From a virus, in the IMG/VR virus record IMGVR_UViG_3300031964_000019, positions 1 to 64,000 of that record: 64,000 bases of DNA, one strand, 5' to 3'. The translations under genes were made by a program, and so were the position numbers. Within the stretch, counting starts at the first letter, position 1. The number at the start of each line of letters is the position of its first letter. The notes below the pieces were generated by a model that saw nothing but the letters and a program-made list of their open reading frames with translations, searched no databases and was not told the origin of the DNA. This document shows, piece after piece, positions 2,883 through 38,006 of this stretch.

Positions 2883-3314
2883 TTACTTGTGACTCTGCGC
2901 GTACCTGAGCATGCCGCCTTCGACGCTCGCGGTCTGCCCGCGAATCCGAATGCCGTGGATAAAGTTCTCATGGCCATACTGGGCGCGGAGCAGGTTCCTA
3001 GTTTCCTTTTCGCAAACGGGTGTGGTGACGTTCGATCCGTCTGTCGTGACGTGCTCGAACTCGCCATCGGCATCCGGGCTGTAATCGGCCAGCATGTCGA
3101 GCGCCTGCTGGATCATCCCCATTTCGACATGCGGATACAGCTTGCGGAGGGTTTCGGCAGTCTTCCGAAACAGCTCCTGCATCTCGTGTGTACGGTCGCG
3201 GTAATTCTGAATCGACGTGCACATATCGGTCTGCTCCGTTGAGCATCCCATCGTTTCTTCGTTTTGGCGGACGAGTCGATAGCCCTGCCAATCGAGCTTG
3301 GTTCGAAGGATCAT
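2883..3314 (-). CDS. Hypothetical protein (143 aa)
   Basis: Mostly helical: NYRDRTHEMQELFRKTAETL and MGMIQQALDMLADYSPDADG are clear amphipathic helices. No recognised catalytic motif. A good ribosome site (AGGAG) precedes the ATG at 3314 within the 3' end of the upstream gene. Probably an early phage accessory protein. Confidence 0.5.
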   Translation of the reverse strand: MILRTKLDWQGYRLVRQNEETMGCSTEQTDMCTSIQNYRDRTHEMQELFRKTAETLRKLYPHVEMGMIQQALDMLADYSPDADGEFEHVTTDGSNVTTPVCEKETRNLLRAQYGHENFIHGIRIRGQTASVEGGMLRYAQSHK

Positions 3315-3563
3315 TCATTTCTCCTGTTGATTACATGTTGCGCTGACGGCGAAGTCTCCGTCCGAGAGACCGTGCTCCGCCAACATTCTCTGGTCTCGGC
3401 GTTCCTCGAAATGTCCGTCGAGATATGCTTCGAGCAGTATCGAGGTCACGCGCATTGCTGTACGCTCCCGCCAGCACCGGAATAGGGCGCGGGTTCCAGA
3501 GCCGGCCCTAACAGCCCATCTCAGGCCGTCGCGTTCCCAACGATATCGTTCTTTCTGAATCAC
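3315..3563 (-). CDS. Hypothetical protein (82 aa)
   Basis: GTG start at 3561-3563 overlaps the upstream stop (GTGA), the best-supported start in a longer open frame. The protein is Arg-rich (RYRWERDGLRWAVRAG) with a helical C-terminal half (ILLEAYLDGHFEERRDQRML). Function unknown. Confidence 0.5.
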   Translation of the reverse strand: MIQKERYRWERDGLRWAVRAGSGTRALFRCWRERTAMRVTSILLEAYLDGHFEERRDQRMLAEHGLSDGDFAVSATCNQQEK

Positions 3564-30661: not shown

Positions 30662-32188
30662 ATGGCCGCGAGCCCTGCCGCACCCCTGACGCGTCCCGGC
30701 CGCGCGGGGCCGAAGCCTCGCGTGCGCGAGAAAGACGGGAAGTTCTACACTGTCGATTCTTTCGAGAACTTCCTAACTAGGACAGGCGTCAATGCTGGCA
30801 ACCTGTCAAGCGGCGGTACGTACGGATTCAATCCGGTAAGCCGCTTACGTTTGAAGATGGAGTGGGCGTATCGTGGGTCGTGGGTTGTCGGCACGATTGT
30901 TGATTGTGTAGCCGAGGACGCCACGCGCGAAGGCGTCCAACTCATCTGCGATGCGTCGCCGGACGAGATCGCCAAGGTCGAGAATCACGCCGACGAGTTG
31001 CAGGTGTGGCCAGAGTTGTGCGACACCGAGAAGTGGAGTCGACTCTACGGCGGCTCGGTTGGCCTGATCATGATCGACGGCCAGGATGTCGCGACGCCGT
31101 TTGACGTGACCACCGTCTCAAGAGACCAGTTCCGCGGTGTACTTCCGCTCGACCGCTGGGCGTTGTTCCCGTCGATGAACGACCTGATCAGCGAGCAGGG
31201 TCCGGACATCGGCAACCCACGCTACTACGAAGTGCGGCCCGACACCGGCACCGGGCTGCCGTATATGAAGCTGCATTACAGCCGGGTCATTCGGTTAGAC
31301 GGTGTGCGGCTTCCCTATTGGCAGAAGATCACGGAAAACTACTGGGGGCAGTCGGTCGTCGAGCGCCTGTGGGATCGACTGATAGCTTTCGATTCGGCCA
31401 CGCAAGGCACGGCGCAGTTGGTTTACAAGGCCCACCTGCGCAACTACAAGGTCAAGGATCTGCGCAAGATCATCGGGCAGGGCGGTAAAGCCTTGGATGG
31501 GCTTTTGGCGCAGATGAATATGATCCGCCAATTCCAGTCCAGCGAGGGCATGACCCTCATGGATACGGAAGACGAGTTTGAGGTCCATCCCTACAGCTTC
31601 ACGGGATTAGACGAGGTGCTTCTCCAATTCGGGCAGCAACTCTCTGGCGCCTCACAGATTCCGCTCGTGCGCCTGTTTGGTCAGTCACCGGCCGGACTGA
31701 ACTCGACGGGCGAGTCTGACCTGCGAATGTATTACGACGGTATCAAGCGCCAGCAGACGGCGCGCCTAGGTCGGGGCGTCCGCAAAATCTACGAGGCTGC
31801 CTGGAGAAGCAAACACGGCGCCGATCCGCCGGAAGGGTGGTCGACTCAGTTCAAGCCGCTGTGGCAAATGGACGATGAGCAGCGAGCTACCGTTGCTGAG
31901 ACGCTCACGCGTGCCGTGTTGGAACCGTACGAGAAAGGCGTCACCGCACGCTCGACGACACTGAAGGAGCTCCGCCAGGTCTCCAAGGTCACGGGAATTT
32001 GGACCAACATAAGCGACGAGATCATTCAAGAAGCCGTCGCGGAAGACAACGAGCAGCCCCCCACCCCCGAGGAACTCGCCATTGCAAACGGCAAAGTGGG
32101 ACCGGACGGCAAGCCGCTCGGCGCAAATGGCGCGACAGACCCAGGACGACCGTCCAAAGAATCCGGTTCGGGGAGCCAGCCGAACTAG
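30662..32188 (+). CDS. Portal protein (DUF1073 type)
   Basis: 508 aa, dodecameric ring at the capsid vertex through which DNA passes. Family features: MEWAYRGSWVVGTIVDCVAE, TEKWSRLYGGSVGLIMIDGQ, PLDRWALFPS, YWGQSVVERLWDRLIAFDSA, GLDEVLLQFGQQLSGASQIP and RLFGQSPAGLNSTGESDLRM, a strongly conserved stretch of DUF1073/Gp6-like portals. C-terminus disordered. Its end overlaps the MuF-like gene by 62 nt. Confidence 0.95.
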   Translation: MAASPAAPLTRPGRAGPKPRVREKDGKFYTVDSFENFLTRTGVNAGNLSSGGTYGFNPVSRLRLKMEWAYRGSWVVGTIVDCVAEDATREGVQLICDASPDEIAKVENHADELQVWPELCDTEKWSRLYGGSVGLIMIDGQDVATPFDVTTVSRDQFRGVLPLDRWALFPSMNDLISEQGPDIGNPRYYEVRPDTGTGLPYMKLHYSRVIRLDGVRLPYWQKITENYWGQSVVERLWDRLIAFDSATQGTAQLVYKAHLRNYKVKDLRKIIGQGGKALDGLLAQMNMIRQFQSSEGMTLMDTEDEFEVHPYSFTGLDEVLLQFGQQLSGASQIPLVRLFGQSPAGLNSTGESDLRMYYDGIKRQQTARLGRGVRKIYEAAWRSKHGADPPEGWSTQFKPLWQMDDEQRATVAETLTRAVLEPYEKGVTARSTTLKELRQVSKVTGIWTNISDEIIQEAVAEDNEQPPTPEELAIANGKVGPDGKPLGANGATDPGRPSKESGSGSQPN

Positions 32189-33241: not shown

Positions 33242-33316
33242 TTGCTGAGCGGGATACCCGCCGGCAGCGTTAAAAATAACGCGACCTCTTTCCTCTCCAC
33301 TTCCGGAGAAACCAAT

Positions 33317-33724
33317 ATGTTCTGGAGGAAGAAAAAGTCCTCCAAGGCGAAGGCGGCTAAAGCTGTCGCGTCGTCTTTGGAGACACGCTCCGATTTCTTG
33401 CCGATCGCGCCGCTCGCCGCCATCAATGACGTTGTGTTGTCCCGCCCCGTCTCGCGCGAACGCGCTGGCGGCATCGGCATGCAGGGCTATGCACCGAAGC
33501 TGGCCATCAGCAAGAACCGCCGCTACTGCGAGTACTGTGCCGAGCGCGTCGTTTCGGACAAGCGCCATGTGTGTTGGGGCAATGCCGAACACCATATGCA
33601 CACGCTGACCGCCGAGGAGCGTGTCCGCATCATGGCTCAGCTTGCCGCAAAGCCGAAGAAGGCGACGAGAGCGCAGTTGAGGAAGCTCTACGCGTCCGAC
33701 AGCGGTCCGCCGGCGGAGTATTAG
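33317..33724 (+). CDS. C2HC-module protein 1 (135 aa)
   Basis: Lys-rich start (MFWRKKKSSKAKAAKAVASS), then NRRYCEYCAERVVSDKRHVC (Cys71, Cys74, His84, Cys86; C-x2-C-x9-H-x-C), then a helix (LTAEERVRIMAQLAAKPKKA). The same spacing recurs in the next two genes. Strong ribosome site (GGAG) before the ATG at 33317. Probably zinc-binding; function unknown. Confidence 0.6.
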   Translation: MFWRKKKSSKAKAAKAVASSLETRSDFLPIAPLAAINDVVLSRPVSRERAGGIGMQGYAPKLAISKNRRYCEYCAERVVSDKRHVCWGNAEHHMHTLTAEERVRIMAQLAAKPKKATRAQLRKLYASDSGPPAEY

Positions 33725-33727
33725 CAT

Positions 33728-34045
33728 ATGAACGACGCTGTGCCGGTATCGATCCCGATTATCTCGACCGCCGTCGGTCAGTGCACCGGCTGCGGCAGTC
33801 TGCTGTTTGCGAACGTCTTCCACATCTGTGCCGCCAACATGCACCTGCACGAGGGCGCGATTGCACAGGAGGTGTTGAAGCAACTCCTGGTGACGAGCTA
33901 CGTCGCCGCGCCTCCAGCCCCTACGACGACGGGGATCGTGACGGAGCCGCCCGCGCTGAAACAAACAGTCTCGCGAACTCACTGTGAGGTGTGTGAGCAG
34001 AGACTGGACCCGACGGCCATGCACCTCTGTGCAGGCAATAAATAA
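33728..34045 (+). CDS. C2HC-module protein 2, two copies (105 aa)
   Basis: Two copies of the C-x2-C-x9-H-x-C module: QCTGCGSLLFANVFHICAAN (Cys19, Cys22, His32, Cys34) and HCEVCEQRLDPTAMHLCAGN (Cys86, Cys89, His99, Cys101), joined by a Pro/Ala linker. The second copy is nearly the same as the one opening the next gene. Function unknown. Confidence 0.6.
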   Translation: MNDAVPVSIPIISTAVGQCTGCGSLLFANVFHICAANMHLHEGAIAQEVLKQLLVTSYVAAPPAPTTTGIVTEPPALKQTVSRTHCEVCEQRLDPTAMHLCAGNK

Positions 34046-34081
34046 AACGACGATTTAACTCCTCTTCCGGAGACAACAGAC

Positions 34082-35746
34082 ATGACCCATAACGTCGACA
34101 CGGCGTTTGATCGAACGTTCTCAGATCCCCCTTCGGTCACGGTGGCCGAGAATCGGACGCACTGTGAAGCCTGCGGCGCAACGCTCGACGCCTCCGTGAT
34201 GCACAAATGCGCGGGGAATGCGGAGTGGAAGGTCGACACTAATTGCGACATGTGCAACGGCACAAACCCGAATTGCGAGGCGTGCGGCGGCACGGGCGAC
34301 CTACTACAAGAGGCCGCCGATGATGACAGCCCGATACTGACCGAGCAGCAGAAATACGAAGCGATGTGGTCTCACGACCAGTACCGCGGCGTCGCCCCCG
34401 GCGAGCAGATCGCCCCCGAATTCCTCAGCGTCGCCCGCCCGCGCAACGGCGCAACGATCATCGACTTCGGCGCCGGCACCGGTCGTGGCTCGCGTGCGAT
34501 TGCCATTCTCGCCAACCTCCATGGCCTCGATGTCACCATCGAGATGCTCGACTTCGCGACCAACGCGCTCGACGACGATGTGGCCGAGCTGTGCAAGCAG
34601 GACGGCACGACCAAGCTTCGATTCACGCAGCACGACCTGACGAAGGCCGCGCCCGTGACCGCGCCGTATGGCTTCTGTACAGACGTGCTCGAGCACATTC
34701 CCCCTGAACAGGTCGACACGGTGCTCCGGAACATTCTGCAGGCCGCACAGCACGTCTTCTTCCAGATCAGTTGCGTCGACGACTCGTGCGGGGTGTTGAT
34801 CGGTCATCCGCTCCACCTGTCCGTGCACGACGGCGCCTGGTGGAAGAAGAAGTTAGAGGACCTTGGCTGCACGATTCATTTCTGGCGCGACGATGAACAC
34901 TCGTGCGTGGCCTACGTCACGGCCTGGTCTGACGGTCAGGATGTCGTTGATGTCGGCGTCCTCAACATCGAGGAAGAGGCGATTCGCGCCAACGTGCGCA
35001 CGAATGTCAAAGGCGGTTGGCATCAGGTCAAGCCACACGCGCCGCAGTCGACCGAGGTCATGATTGTCGGCGGTGGGCCGTCACTGGCCGGTCAGCTCGA
35101 CACGATCCGCCGCATGCGGTTCGAAGGCGTCAAGCTCGTGACACTGAACGGCGCCTACAACTGGGCCATCGAGAATGGCCTCGAGGTTTCGGCGACCGTC
35201 GTCGTCGACGCGCGGCCGCACAATGCTCGTTTCACAAAGCCGGTGCAGCCGCAGACGATCTACCTGATGGGCTCGCAGGTTGATCCGTCGGTGCTCGAGG
35301 GATTGCCGAAGGAACGGACGCTGCTGTGGCACACGACGGCGGAAGCGATCCGCGACATCCTGGAAGAGGAATGCCCTGGCGAATGGTTCGGCGTGCCGGG
35401 CGGTTCAACGGTGTTGCTGCGGGCGATTCCGTTGCTGCGGATGCTGGGGTTCTCTAAGTTTCATTTGTTTGGGTGTGATTCGTGTGTGGTCGCGGATGCG
35501 CATCACGCCTACGCGCAGCCAGAGAACGACGGAACGCCGCTGTTCCCCGCAACGGTGGGCGGTAGGCTATTCCATTGCACCGCATGGCAAGTGGCGCAGG
35601 CGCAGGAGTTCATGAACTTGATCCGCATCATGGGCGACATGTTCGAACTTGAGATGCACGGCGACGGACTGCTGTCATGGATCATCCAACACGGCGCCCA
35701 AGTCGATATCGATTTGGAAGAGGCGCGCGAGGTGTCGGAGAAATGA
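34082..35746 (+). CDS. C2HC - methyltransferase - DUF115 fusion protein
   Basis: 554 aa in three parts. (1) Residues 26-72: C2HC module THCEACGATLDASVMHKCAG (Cys28, Cys31, His41, Cys43) plus CDMCNGTNPNCEACGGTG, a DnaJ-like zinc motif. (2) About 100-290: class I S-adenosylmethionine methyltransferase, motif I IIDFGAGTGRGSRAIAI and TDVLEHIPPEQVDTVLRNIL. (3) About 320-540: DUF115/MAF-like domain, MIVGGGPSLAGQLDTIRRM, VKLVTLNGAYNWAIENGLEV, FHLFGCDSCVVADAHHAYA. DUF115 domains are linked to sugar or pterin pyrophosphate chemistry in other proteins. In a head gene cluster it might modify a virion protein, glycan or DNA; the substrate cannot be read from sequence. Confidence 0.8.
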   Translation: MTHNVDTAFDRTFSDPPSVTVAENRTHCEACGATLDASVMHKCAGNAEWKVDTNCDMCNGTNPNCEACGGTGDLLQEAADDDSPILTEQQKYEAMWSHDQYRGVAPGEQIAPEFLSVARPRNGATIIDFGAGTGRGSRAIAILANLHGLDVTIEMLDFATNALDDDVAELCKQDGTTKLRFTQHDLTKAAPVTAPYGFCTDVLEHIPPEQVDTVLRNILQAAQHVFFQISCVDDSCGVLIGHPLHLSVHDGAWWKKKLEDLGCTIHFWRDDEHSCVAYVTAWSDGQDVVDVGVLNIEEEAIRANVRTNVKGGWHQVKPHAPQSTEVMIVGGGPSLAGQLDTIRRMRFEGVKLVTLNGAYNWAIENGLEVSATVVVDARPHNARFTKPVQPQTIYLMGSQVDPSVLEGLPKERTLLWHTTAEAIRDILEEECPGEWFGVPGGSTVLLRAIPLLRMLGFSKFHLFGCDSCVVADAHHAYAQPENDGTPLFPATVGGRLFHCTAWQVAQAQEFMNLIRIMGDMFELEMHGDGLLSWIIQHGAQVDIDLEEAREVSEK

Positions 35747-35955
35747 GCGAGGCTCAATACCGTTGTCTCGTCGCTTATATGATGTATTGGAGCGAGTGGG
35801 AGGGATGCTCACTCGACCGCGCAATCAAAGAAATTGGCATAGTGATTTCGCGAGAGGACGTCATCCATGAACTCTTCCGCGCCGGCTATGACTACGACCC
35901 CCAACTGGACAGAATCCGCAACACGCAAGACGGTCCAGAAGACCCTAGTCGCTGA
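35743..35955 (+). CDS. Hypothetical protein after the fusion gene (70 aa)
   Basis: ATGA overlap with the fusion gene. Sequence MSEAQYRCLVAYMMYWSEWE, then SLDRAIKEIGIVISREDVIH; a small helical protein with conserved-looking aromatics. The coupling suggests it works with the fusion protein. Family not recognised. Confidence 0.55.
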   Translation: MSEAQYRCLVAYMMYWSEWEGCSLDRAIKEIGIVISREDVIHELFRAGYDYDPQLDRIRNTQDGPEDPSR

Positions 35956-35978: not shown

Positions 35979-36596
35979 ATGGCCGATACCCCGATCCAAC
36001 CTGCTAGCGGCTCTCTCGCCGCCAACGGTATCGCGCTCGCGCTCGCCTTGAGTTTGGTGATCACGCCCGTCGCCGGGAGTCTGTCAGCGACCGCCACGGC
36101 GGGCGTGGTCTCCCAGGCGACCTCGACAGCCATCACGCCGACCGTCGGGTCAGTAACCCTGGCAGGGGTCGCGCCGGGGTTCTCGAAACCAACTGTCACT
36201 GCGATGGTGCCGACCGTCGGTGCCGTCGCGTTGAGTGGGGTGGCGTCTACGCTCGCCCAAGCCATCGGTGCAGTATCGAACTTCGACAGTGTCGATCAAG
36301 GCATTGTCACCTGGTCGGGCATCGCCAACGGGCAGGTTGGCACCCGCGTTCCGCCGGCTCCAGCCTATGGAAAGGTCAGCCTACAGGTCACCGGAACCTT
36401 TGGAAGCGGCGGCTCCATCAAGCTCGAAGGCAGTAACGACGGCATCAACTGGGCCGCATTGAGCCCCGCCGCTCTCACCGGCGCGGGCTTCTTTGCTGCC
36501 CTTGGCGCGAACGAGAAGCCGCGGTATCTGCGGCCTAACTGCACGGCGGGGGATTCGACCACGGCGCTGACGGTAGTCGCGTGGTTTTCGAGCTGA
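35979..36596 (+). CDS. Virion-region protein with short repeat array and beta domain
   Basis: 205 aa. Residues 10-95 hold about four degenerate repeats of the type TPTVGSVTLAGVAP, shared with four other proteins in this window. Residues 100-205 form a beta-sandwich-like domain (GKVSLQVTGTFGSGGSIKLE, GSNDGINWAAL, KPRYLRPNCTAGD) like those of phage capsid or tail surface proteins. Probably a decoration protein. Confidence 0.6.
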   Translation: MADTPIQPASGSLAANGIALALALSLVITPVAGSLSATATAGVVSQATSTAITPTVGSVTLAGVAPGFSKPTVTAMVPTVGAVALSGVASTLAQAIGAVSNFDSVDQGIVTWSGIANGQVGTRVPPAPAYGKVSLQVTGTFGSGGSIKLEGSNDGINWAALSPAALTGAGFFAALGANEKPRYLRPNCTAGDSTTALTVVAWFSS

Positions 36597-36681: not shown

Positions 36682-37293
36682 ATGGCTATCGACGAGTCTA
36701 GCAAGCCGGGCCAGCTTGCGCTATTTGACCGGTCCGCCCCTTCTAAAGCGCCGCGGAAGCATTCCGACGAGACGCGCGCCAAAATGTCTGCGTCGCACAC
36801 GGGCCGCCGCAATACGCCCGAACACAACGCCAATATCGCGAAAGCCCGAACGGGGACCACGCGTCTACCTTCGACCGTGGAGAAGATGCGCAAAGCCTCG
36901 ACGGGCAAGAAGATGTCTCCGTGGTTCAAGGAGGAACTCCGCCGCAGATTCAGCGGACCAGAAAATCCGTCTTTCGGGAAGACGCCCGTCCATGCGGGTC
37001 CGCGCGGTCGATGGATTGAATATCGCGGAATCAACTTCAGGTCCAGTTATGAAGTGCGCTTCGCCAAGGCGTTAGATGCGCGCGGCTGGCCTTGGGAGTA
37101 TGAGCCCGAGCGATTCAACTTAGGGCCGTGTACCTACCTACCAGACTTCTTCGTGCCTAAGCTGGCGGCATATGTTGAGGTCAAGGGTTGGATGGATCCG
37201 CAAAGTAAGAGAAGAATTAATTTATTTCGGGAAGTGCATCCGAAGTTGCCATTGATTGTGGCGACTGATCAGATCATCCGAATGTTCGAATAA
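36682..37293 (+). CDS. NUMOD3 PD-(D/E)XK homing endonuclease
   Basis: 203 aa. N-terminal NUMOD3 repeats (SDETRAKMSASHTGRRNTPE, EHNANIAKARTGT, VEKMRKASTGKKMSP) for DNA contact; C-terminal nuclease RSSYEVRFAKALDARGWPWE, FNLGPCTYLPDFFVPKLAAY, VEVKGWMDPQ (Asp...Glu-x-Lys). A mobile endonuclease among structural genes, with its own leader (36597-36681, containing a GGGCGC...GCGCCC hairpin) and terminator. Confidence 0.85.
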   Translation: MAIDESSKPGQLALFDRSAPSKAPRKHSDETRAKMSASHTGRRNTPEHNANIAKARTGTTRLPSTVEKMRKASTGKKMSPWFKEELRRRFSGPENPSFGKTPVHAGPRGRWIEYRGINFRSSYEVRFAKALDARGWPWEYEPERFNLGPCTYLPDFFVPKLAAYVEVKGWMDPQSKRRINLFREVHPKLPLIVATDQIIRMFE

Positions 37294-37400: not shown

Positions 37401-38006
37401 ATGTCTGAAATGAAGTCGGCGTCACGCCGTATCTATTCGAAGGGCGTCTGGCAGATGACGCCGACCGGCTACGAGTTCCTGCCCGAAGAGTCGGAGTATT
37501 TCGACTATTCTGGCCCCGTAGCTGAGGCCGCCGCGGGCGCGTGGAAGATATACACCAGGGCCAAAAGAACCATCGGGAGTGGCTCGGGGACGATCACGTT
37601 AGGTGCGGGCGTTTTCAAACTCGCACTCTGCCGCACGAGCGCCTCCGCAACGATCCTGAAGATCAGCAACGGTGGCATCTCCACCTGGGCCTCTGTTGGA
37701 AGCGAGATTTCGGCCACGGGCGGCTACGCGGCGAACGGTCGCAACCTCCCGCCTGCCACCGGCAAGTGGACGGTGGGGGCATCCACAAAACAAATGAAGT
37801 TCAGTTATACCACCGCCGGTCTCGTGTTCACGGCCAACGGTGCGAACCTGAACAACATCCGCTACGCGGTGATTCGCAACTCGACGGGCGCTGGCGCGGG
37901 CAAGGTGATTTGCTACTGCACGCTGTCGACGGCGGCGTTCACGATCACATCCCCCAACACCTTGACGATCAGCCCAGCCGCAACTGGGGTCTTCACGATG
38001 GCCTAG
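37401..38006 (+). CDS. Phage structural protein, unknown (201 aa)
   Basis: Starts MSEMKSASRRIYSKGVWQMT; Gly/Ser/Thr-rich beta protein (GSGSGTITLGAGVFKLALCR, KQMKFSYTTAGLVFTANGAN, NNIRYAVIRNSTGAGAGKVI). Matches the general type of virion surface proteins encoded near capsid genes. Good ribosome site; own terminator at 38046. No family named. Confidence 0.6.
   Translation: MSEMKSASRRIYSKGVWQMTPTGYEFLPEESEYFDYSGPVAEAAAGAWKIYTRAKRTIGSGSGTITLGAGVFKLALCRTSASATILKISNGGISTWASVGSEISATGGYAANGRNLPPATGKWTVGASTKQMKFSYTTAGLVFTANGANLNNIRYAVIRNSTGAGAGKVICYCTLSTAAFTITSPNTLTISPAATGVFTMA

Follow-up and report, generated by a model that had tools for sequence, protein, structure and literature searches.

The name PF01973 spans at least two activities, among them that of the 6-hydroxymethylpterin diphosphokinases. 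Maf proteins O-glycosylate serine and threonine residues of flagellin, and the central domain corresponds to pfam01973 and is similar to the sialyltransferase Cst-II (PMC11339370). The N-terminal domain of Maf has a degenerate Rossmann fold in which the methyltransferase motifs are weak (PMC11339370). In FlmG, the flagellin O-glycosyltransferase of Caulobacter, acceptor specificity is set by an N-terminal domain (PMC7591256). In the openly accessible journal literature we found no study of a DUF115/MptE-like enzyme in phages; two apparent DUF115 matches did not concern phage DUF115 proteins, as the word had matched DUF1156. The locus described here lies in a 64,000-nucleotide stretch (the window) of a 69,383-base record of an uncultured virus of bacteria.

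Gene layout and the repeated unit

Three adjacent genes of the window encode proteins with a putative zinc knuckle. Gene 1 (33317..33724, plus strand; 135 aa) encodes a basic N-terminus, a peptide discussed below, one knuckle and a C-terminal tail, and gene 2 (33728..34045, plus strand; 105 aa) encodes two knuckles with a disordered linker between them. Gene 3 (34082..35746, plus strand; 554 aa) encodes an enzyme in which the peptide and a knuckle are followed by a DnaJ-like cysteine motif, a methyltransferase domain and a PF01973 domain. Genes 1 to 3 look real because their GC3 (0.76-0.80) is similar to that of the portal and MCP genes. Gene 4 (35743..35955, plus strand; 70 aa) overlaps the stop of gene 3 in an ATGA; it gave no family match, and no counterpart was seen in the related locus L094. 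A 10-base leader, CTTCCGGAGA, precedes gene 1 (33300..33309, plus strand) and gene 3 (34064..34073, plus strand) and occurs only there in the window (two found versus 0.12 expected); it likely holds the ribosome-binding site of both genes. Elsewhere, ARAGORN called a tRNA-Asn within the portal gene (window 30867-30957) that is probably a false positive.

The original prediction described four identical copies of a C-x2-C-x9-H-x-C module in three adjacent genes. When all six frames of the 64 kb were scanned for CxxC-x(k)-HxC, allowing k values of 3 to 16, there were precisely four matches, every one with k = 9 and all inside 0.7 kb: CEYCAERVVSDKRHVC in gene 1 (33527..33574), CTGCGSLLFANVFHIC and CEVCEQRLDPTAMHLC in gene 2 (33782..33829 and 33983..34030), and CEACGATLDASVMHKC in gene 3 (34163..34210), all on the plus strand. 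The count and placement are confirmed, and "identical" applies to the spacing and not to the sequence. Degenerate DNA patterns, chosen because an alignment of the zinc units is too short to scan with, also located the first knuckle of gene 2. At the DNA level, each gene 2 copy matched that of gene 3 with none of 200 shuffles scoring as high. The gene 1 copy is weaker, with 15-22 of 200 shuffles equalling its matches to the second gene 2 copy and to gene 3, and 58 of 200 equalling its match to the first gene 2 copy. The four-copy unit is not a product of chance.

Among approximately 636,000 ORF residues from the related loci and the window there were 13 CxxC-x(k)-HxC matches. Eight of these were from the window, L007, L012 and L031; the remaining five came from ORFs that are unrelated or probably spurious. 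The three cysteines and the histidine are invariant across all aligned units, with a spacing of 9 throughout, and on the strength of these residues we assume that the knuckles bind zinc. The predicted structure of the gene 2 knuckles is only moderately confident, and the zinc units are too few in sequence for a confident structural model. Searches of Pfam, NCBIfam and PHROG gave no noteworthy match that would place gene 1 or gene 2 in a known zinc family; PHROG matches at E 0.02-0.04 were rejected as chance-level. Protein queries with each of the two genes by itself found no further relatives among viral contigs except L011, a window-like DNA fragment, and L094/L096, and none among genome contigs or plasmids. 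Separately, another phage (L097 724-897 and L098 7505-7678) carries a 57-aa ORF with the same type of knuckle, CEGCGRWLAAPVFHEC, and a terminase-like gene downstream; there is no enzyme gene in the stretch examined.

The repeated unit is larger than first described, because a peptide of about 15 residues, [GS]x[AP]PxVx[IV], stands before three of the four knuckles: those of gene 1 (GGIGMQGYAPKLAIS), gene 2 (TGIVTEPPALKQTVS) and gene 3 (FSDPPSVTVAEN). The first 25 residues of the enzyme's relatives have a common peptide, approximately aG[IVF]x[GS]x[AP]PxVx[IV], directly before the methyltransferase domain. In gene 1 this enzyme-family peptide (33467..33511, plus strand) scored above all of its shuffles (0/500) and ranked first among 53,965 positions in the window ORFs, using a position matrix built from the relatives with the window sequences left out. 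The peptide of gene 2 (33929..33973, plus strand; 10/500 shuffles) aligns with the units of L007, L094, L012 and L031, and that of gene 3, DRTFSDPPSVTVAEN (34109..34153, plus strand; 11/500 shuffles), can be aligned with the zinc units and is similar to the N-terminus of the enzyme family; in these two genes the peptide match taken by itself is modest.

The gene 3 enzyme

All three features that had been predicted for the body of gene 3 are present. The DnaJ-like motif, CxxCxGxxxxCxxCxGxG (34244..34297, plus strand), is evident in the sequence and is not conserved in the zinc clade described below, L007 and L031 having other Cys/His arrangements. The class I SAM methyltransferase domain (34343..34936, plus strand; Methyltransf_25, E 1.4e-6) has an intact D-x-G-x-G-T-G and a DVxEHIP segment. 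Its motif I is invariant (D128, G130, G132, T133, G134), the fold matches too, and the domain is predicted to transfer methyl groups. The PF01973 Maf/MptE-like domain (34973..35701, plus strand) contains the motifs GGGPSL, VDARxxNARF, SQxDP, WHT, GGSTV, GCDSC and HHAY and matches "MptE-like" (Maf_flag10 / DUF115) at E 7e-16, with 58.9 bits against a cut-off of 34.6. The family was above its cut-off in 27 of 27 relatives' records, and the GxGPS motif and a second GxD...H stretch are kept in the family alignment, which was aligned to 5MU5.

The predicted model of gene 3 is confident apart from residues 1-78 (pLDDT < 50), which form the zinc N-terminus. Its best PDB match by Foldseek is 5MU5, the Magnetospirillum Maf glycosyltransferase (E 6.5e-12), ahead of methyltransferases; the match covers 485 columns, enough for both Rossmann domains, with a TM-score to the whole of 5MU5 of only 0.36. 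By sequence profile, 5MU5 matches gene 3 across the PF01973 domain (E 9.4e-6). The structural matches of the methyltransferase domain are small-molecule O/N-methyltransferases, such as phosphoethanolamine N-methyltransferase and ChlM, and one of its profile matches is phrog_4752, annotated as a tRNA methyltransferase (E 0.0018). Family profile searches gave no match to a DNA methyltransferase, nucleotidyl transferase or DNA-binding family, and we rejected a DNA methyltransferase reading of gene 3 for lack of such a match. The PseD equivalog (NF050051), with a cut-off of 670 bits, was not reached by any of the enzymes; L010 alone matched it, at 28.7 bits.

The methyltransferase and PF01973 domains are linked in three ways among the relatives: fused as in gene 3, fused in reverse order, and encoded as separate adjacent genes, as in L006 (MW202621), where the PF01973 match is below the cut-off. 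These exchanges of domain order and gene boundary argue that both activities work together. The reverse-order protein (L010 7884-9293) is a single chain encoded slightly downstream of a capsid-like gene. Two other relatives (L012 6524-8497 and L028 3370-5313) encode a triple enzyme, in which a DSPc (dual-specificity phosphatase) domain is fused before the methyltransferase and PF01973 domains; the DSPc matches have E values of 6.7e-11 and 2.6e-10, respectively, and the CX5R motif is intact. A gene for CTP_transf_3 (CMP-sugar synthetase) was absent from the 27 virus records, many of which are fragments, which suggests that the donor would come from the host or would not be a nonulosonic acid. 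Maf flagellin glycosyltransferases are characterised by a flagellin acceptor and a CMP-nonulosonic acid donor.

Fusion and fission of the zinc unit

A search of IMG/VR for relatives of gene 3 gave confirmed matches to the enzyme family in at least 464 uncultivated-virus sequences, of which 80 were kept. Among 50,697 annotated phage records, a single metagenomic phage was matched, via the methyltransferase alone. Nearly all of the relatives are about 475 residues long and consist of the methyltransferase with PF01973 behind it. The enzyme does not require the zinc module, because the majority of the family has no knuckle; the zinc form belongs to five phages that make up one clade and require one change (SH-aLRT 98, in a tree of 43 enzymes from a quick search without bootstrap).

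Within this clade the unit is found both attached and detached. In the window and in L094 the peptide and knuckle are fused to the enzyme. In L007, L012 and L031 they form a separate gene directly upstream of a peptide-less enzyme; this small gene encodes the peptide and RTHCExC-x9-HxC in L012 and L031, and in L007 it is an orthologue of the two-knuckle gene 2. The peptide was found on the zinc proteins of all three phages (0/500 shuffles each) and was not found at the N-termini of their enzymes (490, 59 and 200 of 500 shuffles in L007, L012 and L031). In L094, both gene-2-type knuckles and the peptide are fused onto the enzyme, and an orthologue of gene 1 (3033-3470, minus strand; 45% identity) lies just upstream. 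We also observed, in the enzyme N-terminus of L007 (2181-2330), a duplicated CxxxxC-x5-HxH motif at the place where the peptide and knuckle would be.

The recurrence of gene 1 and of a fused gene 2 in L094 supports a linked system. The original prediction that the enzyme and the small zinc proteins form a set is borne out by L094 and by the upstream zinc genes of L007, L012 and L031: inside the five-phage clade the genes do not occur independently of one another, nor does the module lie in disordered regions that lack conserved Cys and His. We consider the linkage well supported. In the simplest reading of these sequences, the zinc protein would be a handle that has separated from the N-terminus of the enzyme and acts in trans. 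The small proteins and the enzyme may share a partner through the module, as had been proposed.

Neighbourhood, proposed function and known systems

In the window the gene order is terminase, portal, Mu-F protein, genes 1-4, short-repeat protein, NUMOD3 endonuclease, phrog_644 protein, fibre-like proteins, head protease and MCP. The short-repeat structural protein (PxxGxLxLxGxAP...; 35979..36596, plus strand) adjoins the enzyme cassette, and the phrog_644 protein (37401..38006, plus strand) is the neighbour found most consistently beside enzymes of this family; both are candidate acceptors. A phrog_644 protein is directly upstream in 54 of 83 enzyme loci and directly downstream in 58 of 83, a short-repeat protein is at +2 in 43 of 83, and a tail-fibre-like protein is at +3 in 37 of 83; the counts do not represent independent events, since many of these loci are near-copies, but divergent loci have similar flanks. 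The location between minor head and capsid genes that was first noted is accurate for the window and does not extend to most relatives, in which the enzyme sits within an appendage/tail-fibre cassette with phrog_644 proteins on either side. In one such locus, L054, SU10-adaptor proteins are encoded just upstream.

Two other features of the neighbourhood deserve mention. In 47 loci (e.g., L054 4973-5398), a protein of approximately 120-145 aa with a CDRCGFRY...CNNCW zinc ribbon is encoded upstream of the enzyme, a few genes away. A NUMOD3/endonuclease-like gene close downstream of the enzyme, in the window (36682-37293) and in L037, L044 and L051, possibly marks a homing endonuclease site.

We consider the chances evenly balanced that gene 3 glycosylates and/or methylates an appendage or tail-fibre protein of the phage itself, with the peptide and zinc unit as a docking handle. 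In this model, the PF01973 domain would use a nucleotide sugar as donor for sugar transfer, and the SAM methyltransferase domain would O-methylate that sugar or the same acceptor, which may be a protein of the appendage/tail-fibre cassette such as the adjacent phrog_644 or short-repeat protein. The conserved N-terminal peptide would be the docking handle of the enzyme. In the zinc clade a knuckle would have been added behind it, and the combined unit would then have been copied and moved, so that its presence on the enzyme and on the small partners encoded by genes 1 and 2 may bring the enzyme to the acceptor or keep the two in contact. A docking role is suggested by the conservation of the peptide, by its fusion to and fission from the enzyme and, by analogy, by the example of FlmG. 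With somewhat less than even confidence, we would extend this to a virion glycosylation-plus-methylation machine whose mobile subunit is the acceptor-docking peptide and knuckle, either fused or supplied in trans as one or two zinc proteins, and replaced on the L012 enzyme by the phosphatase domain.

If the enzyme does decorate fibres, the result would be a widespread and unstudied change to the phage surface that bears on adsorption and host range. An experimental handle is offered by the detachable zinc unit, whose binding partner would reveal the acceptor.

It is unlikely, in our estimation, that the enzyme acts instead on a small molecule or a host glycan, such as a surface polysaccharide or cofactor, with its location among late genes incidental. 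The resemblance of the methyltransferase domain to phosphoethanolamine N-methyltransferase and ChlM, the pterin diphosphokinases within PF01973 and the phosphatase domain added in two relatives would all suit such a substrate, but the place of the enzyme among virion genes is very constant over divergent phages, and over the whole chain the best match is to a protein glycosyltransferase, Maf.

We find it distinctly improbable that the peptide and zinc unit serves as a tag for assembly or for incorporation into the virion, rather than a handle that joins enzyme to acceptor, with the enzyme still modifying a structural protein. The peptide would then correspond to a single repeat of the short-repeat protein, and the enzyme and zinc proteins would ride in the particle. 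The peptide pattern scored better than its own shuffles in 28 of 63 repeat proteins (comp 2), versus 0-14% in other neighbour families, with matches such as GYAPTVTI and GYAPTVLV, and the enzyme does sit in an appendage cassette. However, the pattern is a short one composed of common residues, and there is no particular likeness between the enzyme peptide (FSEAPQVKV) and the repeats (GIAPSV) of the largest phage group. The likeness to single repeats, which suggests either docking on the short-repeat protein or incorporation into it, is a lead and not a result.

That the zinc proteins have nothing to do with the enzyme, the minimal knuckle having arisen by convergence in chance neighbours, is very doubtful: similar bare knuckles occur in L097/L098 and L095 with no enzyme in the stretch examined, but throughout the five-phage clade the knuckle, invariably with x9 spacing, adjoins the enzyme or forms part of it, and most copies are preceded by the enzyme's own peptide. 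Scarcely credible is a role in nucleic-acid modification or 5'-end capping, in which the knuckles would bind nucleic acid, as zinc knuckles can, and the methyltransferase and, in L012 and L028, the phosphatase with its intact CX5R would act on the 5' end, because the structural matches are to small-molecule O/N-methyltransferases and Maf and not to DNA methyltransferases, the neighbours are appendage and not replication genes, and no DNA-methyltransferase, nucleotidyl transferase or DNA-binding family was matched, although phrog_4752 carries a tRNA methyltransferase annotation; the nucleic acid substrate included in the original prediction is accordingly disfavoured.

Returning to the proposed protein-modifying enzyme, we find that its closest described counterpart is Maf (5MU5), which is the best fold match and likewise has a Rossmann domain followed by PF01973. 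The methyltransferase motif is intact in the phage enzyme, whereas it is degenerate in Maf (PMC11339370), and only the phage enzyme has a peptide/zinc N-terminus and an appendage-gene setting. Gene 3 ends in the PF01973 region and one helix, with no separate C-terminal helical bundle like the flagellin-export-chaperone-like one of Maf. The Maf fold together with the invariant motif I gives the phage enzyme the appearance of a Maf-type protein in which the methyltransferase is still intact. Among viral proteins, the top structural matches of gene 3 (A0A6J5PVH5, A0A6J7XC21 and others) include proteins of uncultured Caudovirales entered in UniProt/BFVD as "6-hydroxymethylpterin diphosphokinase MptE-like"; these probably belong to the same enzyme family, their name derives from the Pfam domain only, and a zinc unit is not indicated for them. 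Small zinc-ribbon proteins (UOF79506.1 in MW202621, and the CDRCGFRY...CNNCW family, comp 4) share a gene cluster with a methyltransferase in phage head/neck clusters, but they differ from the knuckle in their Cys spacing, no fusion of them to the enzyme occurs in the loci examined, and comp 4 has no peptide enrichment. FlmG appears similar in principle, as an N-terminal part directs a transferase, although in FlmG that part is a flagellin-binding domain, unlike the peptide and zinc unit of gene 3.
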